The position numbers and the translations under genes are program-made. Shown piece after piece: positions 50,958 to 55,562 of a stretch of DNA of 64,000 bases (position 1 is its first letter; each line of letters begins with the position of its first letter). Source of the stretch: Glycomyces harbinensis (lineage in GTDB: Bacteria; Actinomycetota; Actinomycetes; Mycobacteriales; Micromonosporaceae); the NCBI RefSeq assembly GCF_900101745.1, contig NZ_FNAD01000001.1, forward strand, positions 620,001 to 684,000. The letters run 5' to 3'. Below the pieces are notes generated by a model that worked only from the letters and a program-made list of their open reading frames with translations, was not told the DNA's origin and made no database searches.

Positions 50958-51052
50958 GGCGCCACTCTAGTGACCGGATTCCAGCTTCCGGGCCCGCGGG
51001 ACGCCTCCGACTGGGGCCCTTGGGCGGCGGCGACGGCTGCGAGAATTCCTCA

Positions 51053-52165
51053 GTGGGTATTCAGACGCAGTTGCGGCGCGCGGTCGCGGTGTTCAGATTC
51101 GCCGCATTGGGCTATCCGGTGCTGCTCGGTGTCATCTCGCTCGACGCGCTGGTGCATCCGGTCTGGGCGGCCCTGCTGGTCGCGGCGCTCGCCGGATGGA
51201 CCGGTGCGGTCAGCTACCGGTACACCCGAAGGGGGTACGAGCCGCGGGTGCTCTACGCGGACCTCGCGGTGACGGCGCTGGCGGTCGCGGCCTCGGCGTG
51301 GGCGCTGGAGGTCTCGGACCGGTCGGTGCCGATCTCGTTGGGGCCGTGGCTGGCCGGGGCCGTACTCGGTTGGGGCGCGGCGTGGGGCCGGCGCAGCGGC
51401 GCGGTCTCGGGCGGCGTGATCGCCATGGTCGGCATGGTCTTTCGCGGCGGCATCAGCGAGAACACCGTCAACGAGGCGGCCCTGCTGGTCCTGACCGGCC
51501 TCACCTTCGGGCACCTGGTGCGCCTCGGCGTCGAGGCCGAGGAGCGCACGCGCCGGGCGACCGAGCGCAGCGCCGCCGCACGCGAGCGCGAGCGCCTCGC
51601 CCGCGGCATCCACGACTCGGTGCTCCAGGTGCTCGCGCTGGTCCAGCGGCGCGGCAACGAGATCGGCGGCGAGGCCGCCGAACTGGGGCGCCTGGCGGGC
51701 CGCCAGGAGGAGGCGCTGCGCGCGCTCATCGTCTCCGAGTCCTACCGGCACCCGCTCGACGGGCGGCGCGACCTGCGTGAACTGGTCGGGCGGCACGCCG
51801 GGCCGGCGGTGACGATCGCGGCCCCGGCCACGCCGGTGCCGCTGCCGACCGCGACCGCCCGCGAGGTCGCGGCGGCCGTGGCGAGCGCGATCGACAATGT
51901 GCGCGAGCACTGCCCCGCGGGGACGCGGGTGTGGCTGCTGCTGGAGGACGACGGCGAGGCGGTGCAGGTGACGGTCCGCGACGACGGCCCGGGCATGGCG
52001 CCCGGACGGCTGGCCGAGGCCGCCGCCGAGGGCAGACTCGGTGTGGCCCAGTCGATCCAGGGACGGATGAGGGAACTCGGCGGCACCGCGACCGTCGTCT
52101 CGGCGCCCGGCGCGGGCACCGAGATCGAACTGCGCCTGCCGCGCAACGCGAACGAGGAGGGCTGA
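51053..52165 (+). CDS. macS: MacS-like sensor histidine kinase
   Basis: A 370-residue kinase. Residues 10-155 contain about five membrane helices (DUF5931-type sensor), followed by a short coiled coil and a HisKA_3 domain with phospho-His187 in RGIHDSVLQVLALVQ. The HATPase_c domain shows the N box AIDNVREHC and G box DDGPGMAPG. This layout matches the MacS kinases that influence development and secondary metabolism in streptomycetes. GTG 51053 starts it; the response-regulator gene follows one base after the stop, so they are one operon. Confidence 0.88.
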   Translation: MGIQTQLRRAVAVFRFAALGYPVLLGVISLDALVHPVWAALLVAALAGWTGAVSYRYTRRGYEPRVLYADLAVTALAVAASAWALEVSDRSVPISLGPWLAGAVLGWGAAWGRRSGAVSGGVIAMVGMVFRGGISENTVNEAALLVLTGLTFGHLVRLGVEAEERTRRATERSAAARERERLARGIHDSVLQVLALVQRRGNEIGGEAAELGRLAGRQEEALRALIVSESYRHPLDGRRDLRELVGRHAGPAVTIAAPATPVPLPTATAREVAAAVASAIDNVREHCPAGTRVWLLLEDDGEAVQVTVRDDGPGMAPGRLAEAAAEGRLGVAQSIQGRMRELGGTATVVSAPGAGTEIELRLPRNANEEG

Positions 52166-52166
52166 C

Positions 52167-52802
52167 ATGGCGACGCTCATCGTGGTCGACGACCACCCGA
52201 TCTGGCGCGAGGCGATCAGCCGGGACCTCCAGGAGGCCGGGCACCGGGTGCTCGCCGCGTTCGGCGAAGGGCGCGCGGCGCTCAAGGCGATCCGGGACCT
52301 GCGGCCCGACGTGGCGATCCTCGACCTGCAACTGCCCGACCTGTCCGGGGTGGCCGTGCTCCAGAGCCTCGGCGAGGACTGCCCCACCGCGGTCCTGGTG
52401 CTCTCGGCCAGCGGCGAGTCCTCCGATGTGCTGGAGGCGATCAAGGCCGGGGCGCGCGGGTACCTGGTGAAGTCGGCCTCGGCCGCCGAGCTCTCCGAGG
52501 CGGTGGAGCGGGTGGCGGCGGGCGACGCGGTCTTCACGCCGGGCCTGGCGGGCCTGGTGCTCGGCGAGTACCGGCGCCTGGCGAACGCGGACGAACCCGA
52601 GCAGCCGAAGCTGTCGGAGCGGGAGACCGAGGTGCTGCGGCTGGTCGCGAAGGGGCTCAACTACCGCGAGATCGCCGAGCGGCTGTTCCTGTCGCAGCGG
52701 ACGGTGCAGAACCACGTGCAGCACATCCTCACCAAACTCCAGCTGCACAATCGGGCCCAATTGGTGCGGTATGCCATCGAGCAGGGCATCGATGGCGACT
52801 GA
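52167..52802 (+). CDS. macR: NarL/LuxR-type response regulator, MacR-like
   Basis: A 211-residue regulator. Receiver domain with acidic pocket DD8-9, phospho-acceptor Asp53 (AILDLQLPD), Thr/Ser in LVLSASGES and Lys in YLVKSAS. The C-terminal LuxR helix-turn-helix reads LSERETEVLRLVAKGLNYREIAERLFLSQRTVQNHVQHIL (residues about 148-187). It is the partner of the preceding kinase. Two direct repeats 22 bases apart directly downstream are candidate targets. Confidence 0.93.
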   Translation: MATLIVVDDHPIWREAISRDLQEAGHRVLAAFGEGRAALKAIRDLRPDVAILDLQLPDLSGVAVLQSLGEDCPTAVLVLSASGESSDVLEAIKAGARGYLVKSASAAELSEAVERVAAGDAVFTPGLAGLVLGEYRRLANADEPEQPKLSERETEVLRLVAKGLNYREIAERLFLSQRTVQNHVQHILTKLQLHNRAQLVRYAIEQGIDGD

Positions 52803-52812
52803 GCAGCGAGAA

Positions 52813-52845
52813 TGAGTAGTTCCTCACCGCGGTTTGAGTAGTTCC
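52813..52845. promoter_or_regulatory. Two direct repeats TGAGTAGTTCC, 22-base period
   Basis: Identical 11-mers at 52813-52823 and 52835-52845 lie between the response-regulator stop and the synthase-oxidase fusion start. A 22-base period is two helical turns, so two regulator subunits would bind the same face of the DNA. The half-site TGAGTA resembles the TGAGTAC half-site of streptomycete MacR. Confidence 0.5.
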
Positions 52846-52885
52846 GCCGTTGCGCGCGGGACCCTTCCCGTTGCTCAATGGAGGC

Positions 52886-54727
52886 ATGAACGCCTACATC
52901 ACCGCAGCCGGCGCGTACCTCCCCGGCGACCCGGTCGGCAACGACGAGATCGCGGCCCGCCTCGGCGGCGTCGACGAGCGCGGCGACCGCCTCCGCCGCC
53001 GCATCCTCGCCGCCAACGGCATCGCCGAGCGCCACTACGCGCTCGACGCGCAGGGCCGCACGACCGAGCTCAACGAGGAACTCGCCGCCGCCGCGCTGCG
53101 GGCGGTCCTGGAAGACCGCGGCGCGCTCCCCCGCGACCTCGACATGCTCGCCACCGCCACCACGCAGGGCGACCTGCTCGTGCCCGGCTTCGCGTCGATG
53201 GTCCACGGGCGCCTCGGCGGCGGGCCGATGCAGCTCCTGTCCGCCGCGGGCGTCTGCGCTTCCAGCCTCGCGGCCCTGGACGCGGCCGTCGCGAAGGTCC
53301 GCCTGGGCGACCGGCGCCGCGCGGCCGTGGTCGGGTCCGAGCTGTCGAGCCGGTGGCTGCGCGCCTCGAGGTTCCACGGCGGCGGGGACGCCGACGCGCA
53401 CTTCCTGCGGTGGATGCTCTCCGACGGCGCCGGCGCCGTCCTGGTCGAGGCCGAGCCCCGGCCCGACCGGCCGTCGCTGCGGGTCGACTGGGTCCGCACC
53501 GTCTCGCTCGCCCACGAGCACGCCGTGGTCATGCGGGCGGGCATGGGCGAGGGGCCCGACCCCGCGGCCGGGCGCACCTGGCAGGACATGGGCAGCGCCG
53601 CGGCGGCCGAACAGGCCGGCATGATGCTGCTGCGCCAGGACACCAGCGCCCTCGGCGCGCTCGCCGAAGCGGGGCTGCGCGAGTTCGAGTCGCTGACGAA
53701 AGAGGGCCTGATCGACCTCAAGCGGCTCGACCACGTCCTGTGCCACTACTCGACGAACGCCTTCCGCGACATCGTGTTCGAGCGCCTCGCCGAGACCGGC
53801 GCGTCCATCGACACCGGACGGTGGTTCTCGAACCTGGAGACCCGCGGCAACACCGGCGCGGCCTCGATCTTCATCGCCCTGGAGGAGTGCTGGCGGACCG
53901 GGCGGTTCGAACCGGGCCAGACGGTCCTGCTGGCCGTCCCCGAGTCGGGGCGCTTCCAGTTCGGCTTCGCGCACCTGACCTGTGTGGACGCCGAACGCTC
54001 CGTGTCCGCCGCCGCGCCCGTCGCGACGTACTCCCCCGCGCCGGAGCCGGTCACCGCGCCCGAGCCTCCCGCCGAGAGCGTGTTCGCGCGCCTGGACGAG
54101 GTGTGGCAGGACTTCGAGGAACGCCTCGCCGCCGTCCCGGTCATGGCCCGCCTCGAAGAGGGCACCGCCACCATGGAGGACTACCGGCGGCTCCTGTTCA
54201 ACCTGCGCCAGCAGGTCGCCGACGGCGCCCGCTGGATCTCCCGGGCCGCCTCCAACTTCTCGGTCGACCTGTTCGACCTGCGCAGCGCCGCGATCGGCCA
54301 CGCCGAAGAGGAGCACCGCGACTTCATGCTGCTGGAGCGCAACTACGCGGCCTGCGGCGGCTCCCTCGAGGACATCCGCGCCGGCGAGAAGAACATCGGC
54401 TCGGAGGCCTTGTCCGCGTACATGTTCCACACCGCGAGCCAGCCCGACCCGATCGGCCTGCTCGGGGCCATGTTCATCATCGAGGGCCTGGGCACCGGCA
54501 AGGCCGCCGGATGGGCCGCCCGGTTCAAGAAGCTCCTGGACCTGCGCGACGACCAGGTCAGCTTCCTGGCCTACCACGGGGAGGCCGACGACGACCACTT
54601 CGCGAAGCTCCAGGCGATCCTCGCCTCCCCGCGCGTCGACGCGCCCGCCGCGGACGCGATCGTCAAGACCGCCAAGATCGTCGCCCGCCTGTACGCGCTC
54701 CAACTGGAAGAACTCGACAATGTCTGA
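52886..54727 (+). CDS. KAS III-like ketoacyl synthase fused to haem-oxygenase-like diiron oxidase
   Basis: A 613-residue two-domain protein. Residues 1-370 are a FabH-like synthase with the full triad: Cys124 (AAGVCASSL), His287 (LCHYSTNAFRD) and Asn322 (RGNTGAAS). A Pro/Ala/Glu linker (371-398) joins residues 399-610, an iron-containing haem-oxygenase-like (HDO) domain with AEEEH ending at His477, Glu533 in IIEGLGTGK, and YHGEADDDH with His564 and His571 as probable ligands. HDO enzymes such as UndA oxidise fatty acyl groups or amino acids. The fusion suggests condensation then oxidation of an acyl chain; the product is unknown. The gene overlaps the next by eight bases. Confidence 0.88.
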   Translation: MNAYITAAGAYLPGDPVGNDEIAARLGGVDERGDRLRRRILAANGIAERHYALDAQGRTTELNEELAAAALRAVLEDRGALPRDLDMLATATTQGDLLVPGFASMVHGRLGGGPMQLLSAAGVCASSLAALDAAVAKVRLGDRRRAAVVGSELSSRWLRASRFHGGGDADAHFLRWMLSDGAGAVLVEAEPRPDRPSLRVDWVRTVSLAHEHAVVMRAGMGEGPDPAAGRTWQDMGSAAAAEQAGMMLLRQDTSALGALAEAGLREFESLTKEGLIDLKRLDHVLCHYSTNAFRDIVFERLAETGASIDTGRWFSNLETRGNTGAASIFIALEECWRTGRFEPGQTVLLAVPESGRFQFGFAHLTCVDAERSVSAAAPVATYSPAPEPVTAPEPPAESVFARLDEVWQDFEERLAAVPVMARLEEGTATMEDYRRLLFNLRQQVADGARWISRAASNFSVDLFDLRSAAIGHAEEEHRDFMLLERNYAACGGSLEDIRAGEKNIGSEALSAYMFHTASQPDPIGLLGAMFIIEGLGTGKAAGWAARFKKLLDLRDDQVSFLAYHGEADDDHFAKLQAILASPRVDAPAADAIVKTAKIVARLYALQLEELDNV

Positions 54728-55562
54728 GCTGCGCGACGACCCGCCCATGTGGGACGCCGTGGTCGCCGACCCGTCGGTGCCGCTGGACCGCGAGACCGTG
54801 CGCATGATCGCCGACGACCAGCGCCGGTGGACGCGCACCTGGCTCTACCCCGTCGCCCGGCCCGTGTCGCGGGTGCTCGCCGTGGTCATCGTCGTCCTCA
54901 AGCGCCTGACGCCGATCCGGTGGACCACGCACCGGCTCATGGACCGGCTCTGCATCTGGTTCCTGCGCCGGTTCGTGTCCCCGCTCGCGGTCGAACTGCT
55001 CATCAGGCACTTCGTGATCGAGACGAACCTGCTCAACTTCATCGTCCGCAACACCGCCACCCCGATCGACCCGGTGGCGCTGCGCCCCACCGACCTCGCC
55101 GGGCTCGGGAACAAGGCCGTGATCGAGCACGACGTCAACGTGTACGTCGTGCTCGCGGCCCTGGACATGACGCCGGCGGGCCCGCTCGACTACGCCGGTC
55201 TCGACATGCCGCCGCTGGACCCCGAGCCGGGCCGGCGGCGGCTCATGCGGCTGGACGTCCAGACGGCCCTGTGCCTCATGAACCTGCCGTTCGCCGCGTG
55301 CCTCACCCCCGACGAGTACCGGCGCGCCGTCCACTCGATGCGGTTCGACGACTCGATCCTGGCGATCCTGGCCGACCTCACCGGCGACCCGACGTTCCTG
55401 CGCTGGCAGAACGGGGACCTGTCGGTGCGGGCCGACTCCAACACGGACGTGCCGCGCGCGGTCTACCGGCACGCCGTGGTCTGCGAGTACGCGCACGCGC
55501 ACCTGCGCAGGCTCGCGGCAGAGGCCGCCGCCGCGGGAGCGGCGGCGGGCGAGGCGGCGTGA
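54720..55562 (+). CDS. Unassigned partner of the synthase-oxidase fusion
   Basis: A 280-residue protein. Residues 30-110 hold amphipathic and hydrophobic helices (LYPVARPVSRVLAVVIVVLKRL and CIWFLRRFVSPLAVELLIRHF) without long clear membrane spans; the centre has NLLNFIVRNTATPIDPVALRPTDL and VIEHDVNVYVVLAALD; the C-terminus is helical and alanine-rich. HF..ETN and EHD..N could bind metal, but this is speculation. ATG 54720 overlaps the fusion gene stop, so the proteins are made in parallel and probably act in the same pathway, perhaps at the membrane. Confidence 0.8.
   Translation: MSELRDDPPMWDAVVADPSVPLDRETVRMIADDQRRWTRTWLYPVARPVSRVLAVVIVVLKRLTPIRWTTHRLMDRLCIWFLRRFVSPLAVELLIRHFVIETNLLNFIVRNTATPIDPVALRPTDLAGLGNKAVIEHDVNVYVVLAALDMTPAGPLDYAGLDMPPLDPEPGRRRLMRLDVQTALCLMNLPFAACLTPDEYRRAVHSMRFDDSILAILADLTGDPTFLRWQNGDLSVRADSNTDVPRAVYRHAVVCEYAHAHLRRLAAEAAAAGAAAGEAA

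Follow-up and report, generated by a model that had tools for sequence, protein, structure and literature searches.

What is made by a bacterium in which a ketosynthase and a haem-oxygenase-like diiron-type oxidase (HDO) are joined in a single protein? This question is raised by a locus of Glycomyces harbinensis in a 64,000-nt stretch of contig NZ_FNAD01000001.1 (positions 620,001–684,000; referred to as the window, whose own numbering is used below), where such a fusion gene overlaps a gene of the DUF6999 family and lies behind a two-component regulatory pair. On balance, the analysis favoured a dedicated fatty-acyl assembly cassette, in which a product of the synthase would be oxidised by the HDO and then taken through a further step by DUF6999, with MacRS-type control in actinomycetes.

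The synthase, HDO and DUF6999 cassette

The fusion could be read as one open frame of 613 amino acids (AA) on the forward strand, from the ATG at 52886 to the stop codon at 54725–54727. This agreed with the 613-residue synthase-oxidase protein described in the original prediction, which had been made from the letters of the window alone; the start at 52813 given there proved not to belong to the gene but to mark where an operator-like repeat upstream of it begins. Pfam analysis of the fusion revealed the domains ACP_syn_III_C (41 bits, cut-off 26.6), ACP_syn_III (27.3 bits, cut-off 24), and Haem_oxygenas_2 (PF14518, 36.9 bits, cut-off 28.9). The StlD/DarB-like ketosynthase domain occupied 52886–53995 (residues 1–370) and was followed by a low-confidence interdomain linker at 53996–54079, where the predicted local distance difference test (pLDDT) of the AlphaFold2 model fell below 50 for residues 371–396, and by the HDO domain at 54080–54727 (residues 399–613 and the stop), whose family carries the label 'iron-containing redox enzyme'. 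All three lie on the forward strand. The model of the whole fusion reached a mean pLDDT of 84.7 and a predicted template modelling score (pTM) of 0.61, with an all-helical HDO half. When the whole fusion was searched with Foldseek, only synthase folds appeared among the best 50 matches listed, so the fold of the HDO half could not be judged on its own from this search.

The gene that follows (54720–55562, forward strand, 280 AA) starts 8 nt before the end of the fusion, as had been predicted. It had been placed in no recognised family, and this had to be revised, because Pfam analysis assigned it to DUF6999 (PF22523), a family of unknown function, with 280.8 bits and an E value of 1.2e-83 against a cut-off of 27; the candidate reading of a partner unrelated to any family was thus rejected. 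All 41 members of alignment A6, which was built from 40 loci, also matched DUF6999.

When genomes were scanned with the HDO alignment, 455 relatives were confirmed; the counts given here use the best 80 of these, which are the closest relatives and therefore lean to Actinomycetota. The one-strand order synthase, HDO, DUF6999 was present in 78 of the 80 loci. The two exceptions were L075, which ends right after the HDO, and L108, whose contig ends inside a desaturase gene; a true lack of DUF6999 in L108 was rejected, as a second contig of the same genome, overlapping by 119 nt, gives the desaturase and then DUF6999. The cassette occurred in Actinomycetota, Bacteroidota, Pseudomonadota, Acidobacteriota, and one Neomarinimicrobiota genome, and the same three genes were carried by a Pseudoalteromonas plasmid. 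The nearest named cassette was that of Glycomyces amatae, 92% identical to the window over 848 columns. Within the genus a full-length fusion was present in 18 of 22 genomes, showing the cassette to be accessory. A contig titled Euryarchaeota (L084) also holds the genes with a broken synthase frame; its HDO identity to the window resembled that of the Acidobacteria loci L083 and L085 (63, 62, and 63%, respectively), and the title is possibly a binning error. In a Caulobacter vibrioides genome both DUF6999 and PF14518 gave matches, and a cassette may exist there. Viral contigs were searched as well, with nothing useful found.

Synthase and HDO were fused in 40 of the 81 loci analysed and separate in 41, the 'split' in L084 being a frame break only. 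On a tree of 78 rows the fusion state changed three times, the deepest branches being long and their placing unsure. The possibility that the fusion is an assembly accident was rejected on these grounds: one frame in 40 loci, neighbouring genes elsewhere, and three changes on the tree. From the HDO stop to the nearest in-frame DUF6999 start the median distance was 0.5 nt, the frames overlapped in 37 of 78 rows, and all 78 lay within 60 nt. Pairwise distances of the three proteins correlated at 0.94, 0.95, and 0.89 over 78 rows, as expected for co-inheritance, although a shared species history alone also raises such correlations. Distance and tree counts exclude L075, L078, L084, and L108; in L078 and L084 the reading frame of the synthase is interrupted.

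The association was also evident when DUF6999 was taken as the starting point. Among 296 genomes sampled from the phylum of the window it was found in 3, among 296 from the phylum of L108 (a contig titled Saprospiraceae) in 5, and among 398 from the phylum of L107 (titled Pseudomonadales) in 9, that is, in 1.0–2.3% of the genomes sampled across three phyla. The synthase-HDO pair lay beside it in 3/3, 4/5, and 9/9 of these, respectively, giving 16 of 17 genomes, or 13 of 14 without the sampling centres G000, G419, and G716; in G419 a desaturase gene stands between the pair and DUF6999. The lone exception, G639, has a 32-bit DUF6999 match with an in-frame stop near a synthase relative, without an HDO match. 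DUF6999 therefore hardly occurs without the pair in these samples, and the co-occurrence of pair and partner that the original prediction had asked for in other genomes was found from both directions. One contig of the L108-phylum sample (L153, 3507–3908) carries a Colicin_immun family gene that overlaps the end of the DUF6999 frame.

The AlphaFold2 model of DUF6999 was nearly all helical (pLDDT 85.5, pTM 0.84). Weak Foldseek matches to PolF, AetD, and TenA raised the candidate that DUF6999 is itself an HDO; this was rejected, the profile comparison giving a probability of 0.1. Among the residues that at least 77 of the 78 rows retain are R96, H97, E101, N111, H137, D138, D179, D210, H251, and E256. 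The most hydrophobic 19-residue stretch had a mean of at least 1.6 in 58 of 78 rows and started at residue 30–60 in 65 of 78. The earlier idea of a partner acting at the membrane is compatible with this predicted hydrophobic helix, which is weak evidence for membrane contact.

Predicted chemistry of the synthase and the oxidase

Of the NCBIfam models, the best for the window synthase was StlD/DarB NF005293 (320.9 bits, E 1.1e-95), although the 450-bit cut-off of this model was missed by all seven cassette synthases tested, the six others scoring 327.4–423. The best solved relative was StlD (5gk0; phmmer 5e-62, profile search 1.6e-100), and Foldseek placed the predicted structure on the same protein with an E value of 1e-31, a TMt of 0.86–0.91, and approximately 35% identity. 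The Cys-His-Asn triad aligned with that of StlD, and C124, H287, and N322 were invariant in 78 of 78 cassette rows, so that the intact triad noticed earlier held throughout. The earlier label of a ketoacyl synthase III was revised: the nearest relatives are the chain-joining, ring-forming StlD and DarB enzymes of stilbene and dialkylresorcinol pathways and not a generic enzyme of that class. As judged by sequence comparison, the synthase resembles StlD/DarB while scoring below the family's own threshold, and it is further set apart from these enzymes by the accompanying HDO, fused or neighbouring, and DUF6999.

StlD and DarB belong to a class of synthases that make 2,5-dialkylcyclohexane-1,3-diones, and in the dialkylresorcinol route a separate enzyme, the flavin aromatase DarA or StlC, oxidises the dione. 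This synthase class is widespread and converts a beta-ketoacyl and an unsaturated acyl thioester to the dione (PMC4578411), and the dialkylresorcinol route proceeds through such diones (PMC4414361). By analogy, the cassette synthase may make 2,5-dialkylcyclohexane-1,3-diones or a related beta-diketone. The DarABC operon likewise has a chain-joining synthase whose dione product is oxidised afterwards (PMC4414361), whereas the partner in the cassette is an oxidase of the O2 type. A region of a Streptomyces linear plasmid (L143, 8703–17141) holds a StlD/DarB-like synthase together with acyl carrier proteins, FabF, FabG, a FAD monooxygenase, and a P450, and is a possible standard counterpart of the cassette; its FAD monooxygenase, the one query tried in place of DarA, had no relative at E 1e-6 in any of the 81 loci.

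The assignment of the second domain to PF14518 extended to 34 of the 39 members of alignment A5 at E ≤ 0.01, which is every row that covers the domain (of the 40 fused loci A5 comprises 28, and of the 41 split loci 5). An HDO profile built with relatives matched 14 chains of the PDB, led by 3dde (1e-20), SznF (2e-6), MboA (2e-5), and CADD (CT610; 1.5e-4) and including 4-aminobenzoate synthase, BesC (4-chloro-allylglycine synthase), and HrmI. In the window and the 81 loci, H472, E476, H477, D479, E533, H564, D568, and H571 were each conserved in 82 of 82 rows. Both motifs named as metal-ligand patterns in the original prediction, AEEEH and YHGEADDDH, are present, but the former is only partly constant: its first Glu is Glu in 33 of 82 rows and its second in 74, while the third (E476) and H477 are invariant. 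In 11 further loci, six of which have an HDO just 32–37% identical to that of the window, H472, E476, D479, E533, H564, D568, and H571 were all kept, but H477 was replaced by Gln in 7 of them (six Pseudomonadota and L153).

Alignment with other PF14518 members showed that the mid-helix Glu (E533) and the helix H564-x3-D568-x2-H571 match; these two features, the PF14518 family, and the all-helical model are common ground with HDOs such as SznF, BesC, MboA, CADD, and UndA. The first ligand helix differs: it reads H472-x3-E476-x2-D479 in the cassette, whereas the aligned relatives have E-x2-H or E-x9-H, and the standard His column is occupied by Asp (D479). In the AlphaFold2 model H472, E476, and D479 lie at i, i+4, and i+7 on a single predicted helix (460–489), a spacing by which they can face the same side. 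The invariant candidate ligands are thus three His and four Glu/Asp residues, with the His lying earlier on the first helix, and ligand sets of 3H/3C or 3H/4C on the core helices have been described for HDOs (PMC13108848). The pattern points to a permuted putative set of three His and four carboxylates. The earlier claim of a diiron-type HDO was borne out as to the family and an invariant set of candidate Glu/Asp/His ligands, whose absence would have counted against it; the set departs from the usual E-x2-H type.

The substitution of Asp in the standard His column could also mean that the domain is structural or redox-protective and no longer a metal enzyme, leaving the synthase alone catalytic. 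The HDO-like DtpC of Acinetobacter is indeed protective, but it loses its effect when its predicted ligands are changed (PMC13232832). Moreover, seven ligand-type residues are invariant across phyla, even in HDOs only 32–37% identical, which argues for a working site. A domain without metal is accordingly considered very unlikely.

It was also considered whether the HDO works like UndA, decarboxylating or cleaving the acyl product to an alkene or a shortened hydrocarbon. UndA is an HDO that acts on fatty acids (PMC13108848), the domain has the HDO fold with ligand-type residues, and fatty-acyl genes adjoin the cassette in some lineages. However, UndA was absent from the 14 PDB matches of the profile at E values up to 1, a StlD/DarB-type product would usually not be a free fatty acid, and the first ligand helix is unlike the E-x2-H of relatives. 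An UndA-like reaction is therefore held to be quite improbable. Since an O2-type oxidase is the constant partner of the synthase, the simplest model is that the HDO oxidises the product of the synthase. Sequential desaturation by MboA and desaturation by PolF are both HDO chemistry (PMC13108848), and desaturation to an aromatic ring would fit it; the reaction may also be a hydroxylation or cleavage.

Proteins of the same family occur in other settings. The genome of the window encodes a second PF14518 protein (L116, G000:C34:45641-46171, 201.8 bits) and a weaker third on C21. Plasmids of Citrobacter, Pseudoalteromonas, and Variovorax (L027 5880–10046, L028 5844–10087, and L029 5651–10041, respectively) carry small operons of a thermostable hemolysin (T_hemolysin), an AMP-binding protein, an iron-containing redox enzyme, an SDR oxidoreductase, and a hypothetical protein. 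Their HDO is approximately 25% identical and has the standard E-x2-H, and, in contrast to the cassette, no ketosynthase or DUF6999 was annotated adjacent to it in the three regions.

Neighbouring lipid genes and regulation

Genes for the modification of fatty chains adjoin the cassette in several lineages. Among eight new Pseudomonadota loci, five have FA_hydroxylase and then FA_desaturase just before the synthase (four of these hydroxylases were called by Pfam and that of L169 by tblastn), and a sixth has FA_desaturase alone. Two Bacteroidota loci, L154 and L108, have an FA_hydroxylase gene whose end is only a few nt away from the start of the synthase. L108 and its continuation L147 have a desaturase between HDO and DUF6999; the 127-residue end on L108 gave nothing with Pfam and a PDB acyl-CoA desaturase at 2.5e-6, and the continuation scored 31.4 bits against a Pfam cut-off of 29.7. 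In L082 a cytochrome P450 gene ends 14 nt before the synthase. As hydroxylases, desaturases, and P450s are typical tailors of fatty chains, these neighbours are the main reason for proposing a fatty-acyl product.

Upstream of the fusion, on the same strand, the window encodes a MacS-type sensor histidine kinase at 51020–52165 (DUF5931 and HATPase_c; PF19354, PF02518), which scored 397.9 bits with the MacS model NF047322 (cut-off 300), and its paired NarL/LuxR-type response regulator at 52167–52802 (Response_reg and GerE). The same model also matched above its cut-off in the Trebonia locus L101 (434.2 bits). Relatives of the response regulator were found near the cassette in Glycomyces, Phytomonospora, Catellatospora, and Trebonia, and up to 3 kb upstream in 25 of the 81 loci, two of these matches being weak. 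A requirement for the sensor pair everywhere was thus rejected, since it is near some cassettes only. The pair resembles MacRS of Streptomyces in a kinase above the MacS cut-off and a NarL-type partner; unlike MacRS, it adjoins a biosynthetic cassette, and its candidate site is a direct TGAGTA repeat. The MacRS binding consensus presumably also begins with TGAGTAC.

This tandem operator-like repeat, TGAGTA-N16-TGAGTA, lies at 52813–52840 on the forward strand, just upstream of the cassette. The exact repeat did not occur in 100 shuffles of the window. In the 18 fusion-bearing Glycomyces genomes a half-relaxed form was present within approximately 100 bp of the fusion in 14 and approximately 1.2 kb upstream in two, where an S13 D,D-carboxypeptidase gene intervenes. 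Of the 81 loci, 16 had a relaxed form no more than 150 bp ahead of the synthase and 2 had one upstream of that carboxypeptidase gene, while the letter-reversed control appeared in one (L093, itself one of the 16); there were no occurrences in 217 kb of cassette bodies and none on the opposite strand. The repeat recurs in Catellatospora, Longispora, Asanoa, and another actinomycete, with wider spacing in Trebonia. The evidence for a TGAGTA site is its location and not its number.

Two further explanations were considered. Firstly, the synthase may make a diffusible cyclohexanedione- or pyrone-like signal, with the MacS-type kinase of actinomycetes sensing this signal or the resulting membrane state. 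The DarABC products and dione intermediates are signals in Photorhabdus (PMC4414361), and the kinase-regulator pair and operator-like site adjoin the cassette; however, the regulator relatives are confined to the 25 loci given above, and no receptor was seen travelling with the cassette across phyla. In the flanking DNA covered for the 81 loci, no gene outside the cassette reached more than 6 of the 29 genera (or equivalent groups), and genes of response-regulator size headed the listed part of this comparison. A signalling role is thus regarded as unlikely.

Secondly, the cassette may make a structural lipid of the membrane or envelope that is needed under envelope stress, rather than a secreted compound or a signal. 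In Streptomyces coelicolor the targets of MacRS are membrane proteins and lipoproteins (PMC9739842, PMC10345050), and membrane desaturases and hydroxylases are neighbours in other phyla. In two Glycomyces genomes (L044 and L046, 3639–4817) a gene for an S13-family D,D-carboxypeptidase stands in operon position, between the MacR-type regulator with the repeat and the synthase. On the other hand, the cassette is accessory, both within Glycomyces and by the rarity of DUF6999 in the three phyla sampled. An envelope lipid is possible, though doubtful.

A proposed pathway and its meaning

In the favoured reading, a dedicated fatty-acyl assembly cassette, the StlD/DarB-like synthase would take two acyl thioesters from primary fatty-acid metabolism and join them to a 2,5-dialkylcyclohexane-1,3-dione or related beta-diketone. 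The product would pass directly to the fused or neighbouring HDO with its rearranged, predicted diiron-type site, and would be oxidised with O2, most likely by desaturation or aromatisation. DUF6999, helical and perhaps membrane-associated, would perform a further step, and in some lineages the set is extended by a hydroxylase or a desaturase, both of the membrane type, or by a P450. The cassette of Glycomyces and related actinomycetes would be switched on by a two-component system of the MacRS type through the tandem TGAGTA site. The assembly-line idea of the original prediction, in which an acyl chain is built and then oxidised, gained from the presence of synthase and oxidase in one protein, the constant partner, the cross-phylum co-occurrence, and the fatty-acid-type neighbours of some lineages; nothing found points to the alkene or cleaved product suggested with it.

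Several observations weigh against the favoured reading. With scores below the StlD/DarB cut-off, the reaction of the synthase may differ from that of StlD and DarB, and in the HDO an Asp takes the place of the His that is standard on the first ligand helix. The DUF6999 model had no Foldseek match at E < 0.001, PDB and viral libraries included. The hydroxylase, desaturase, and P450 neighbours are lineage-specific: two of the eight new Pseudomonadota loci (L174 and L175) have neither hydroxylase nor desaturase by similarity, and tblastn with hydroxylase, desaturase, P450, FAD monooxygenase, and acyl carrier protein queries left 79 of the 81 loci without a relative at E 1e-6 in the DNA covered (the exceptions being L108 and L082), so the actinobacterial cassettes searched stand without such neighbours. 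As for regulation, binding of the regulator at the repeat is suggested by position. The exact TGAGTA-N15-18-TGAGTA occurs once in the 6.17-Mb genome, at 52813–52840, as does its letter-reversed control, a count that carries little weight by itself. Across the genome the half-relaxed motif does not exceed its control in frequency, and 2 of the 18 cassette-bearing Glycomyces genomes have none ahead of the cassette.

A more specific proposal is put forward tentatively, as a possibility of lower likelihood than the cassette itself: that a cross-phylum pathway has replaced the aromatase of the dialkylresorcinol route by a new HDO subclass (H-x3-E-x2-D, Glu, H-x3-D-x2-H) coupled to a ketosynthase. 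DUF6999 would be an additional enzyme of this pathway, its product would be dialkyl ring lipids of a new class, and in actinomycetes an envelope two-component system would control it.

In the literature searched, with most subscription papers outside the search, no description of DUF6999 or of a ketosynthase-HDO/PF14518 pair was found, in keeping with the earlier view of the locus as a candidate for an undescribed pathway. The cassette very probably makes one compound class without description in that literature, and it is small enough for whole expression in a laboratory host. DUF6999 gains a first context. The HDO superfamily, with about a dozen characterised members (PMC13108848), is extended by a branch that is coupled to a ketosynthase and has an unusual putative metal site; the words 'fusion', 'fused', and 'ketosynthase' are absent from this 2026 review. 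Aromatisation of the ring by the HDO, if it takes place, would give the fold a chemical role not named in the part of the review consulted.

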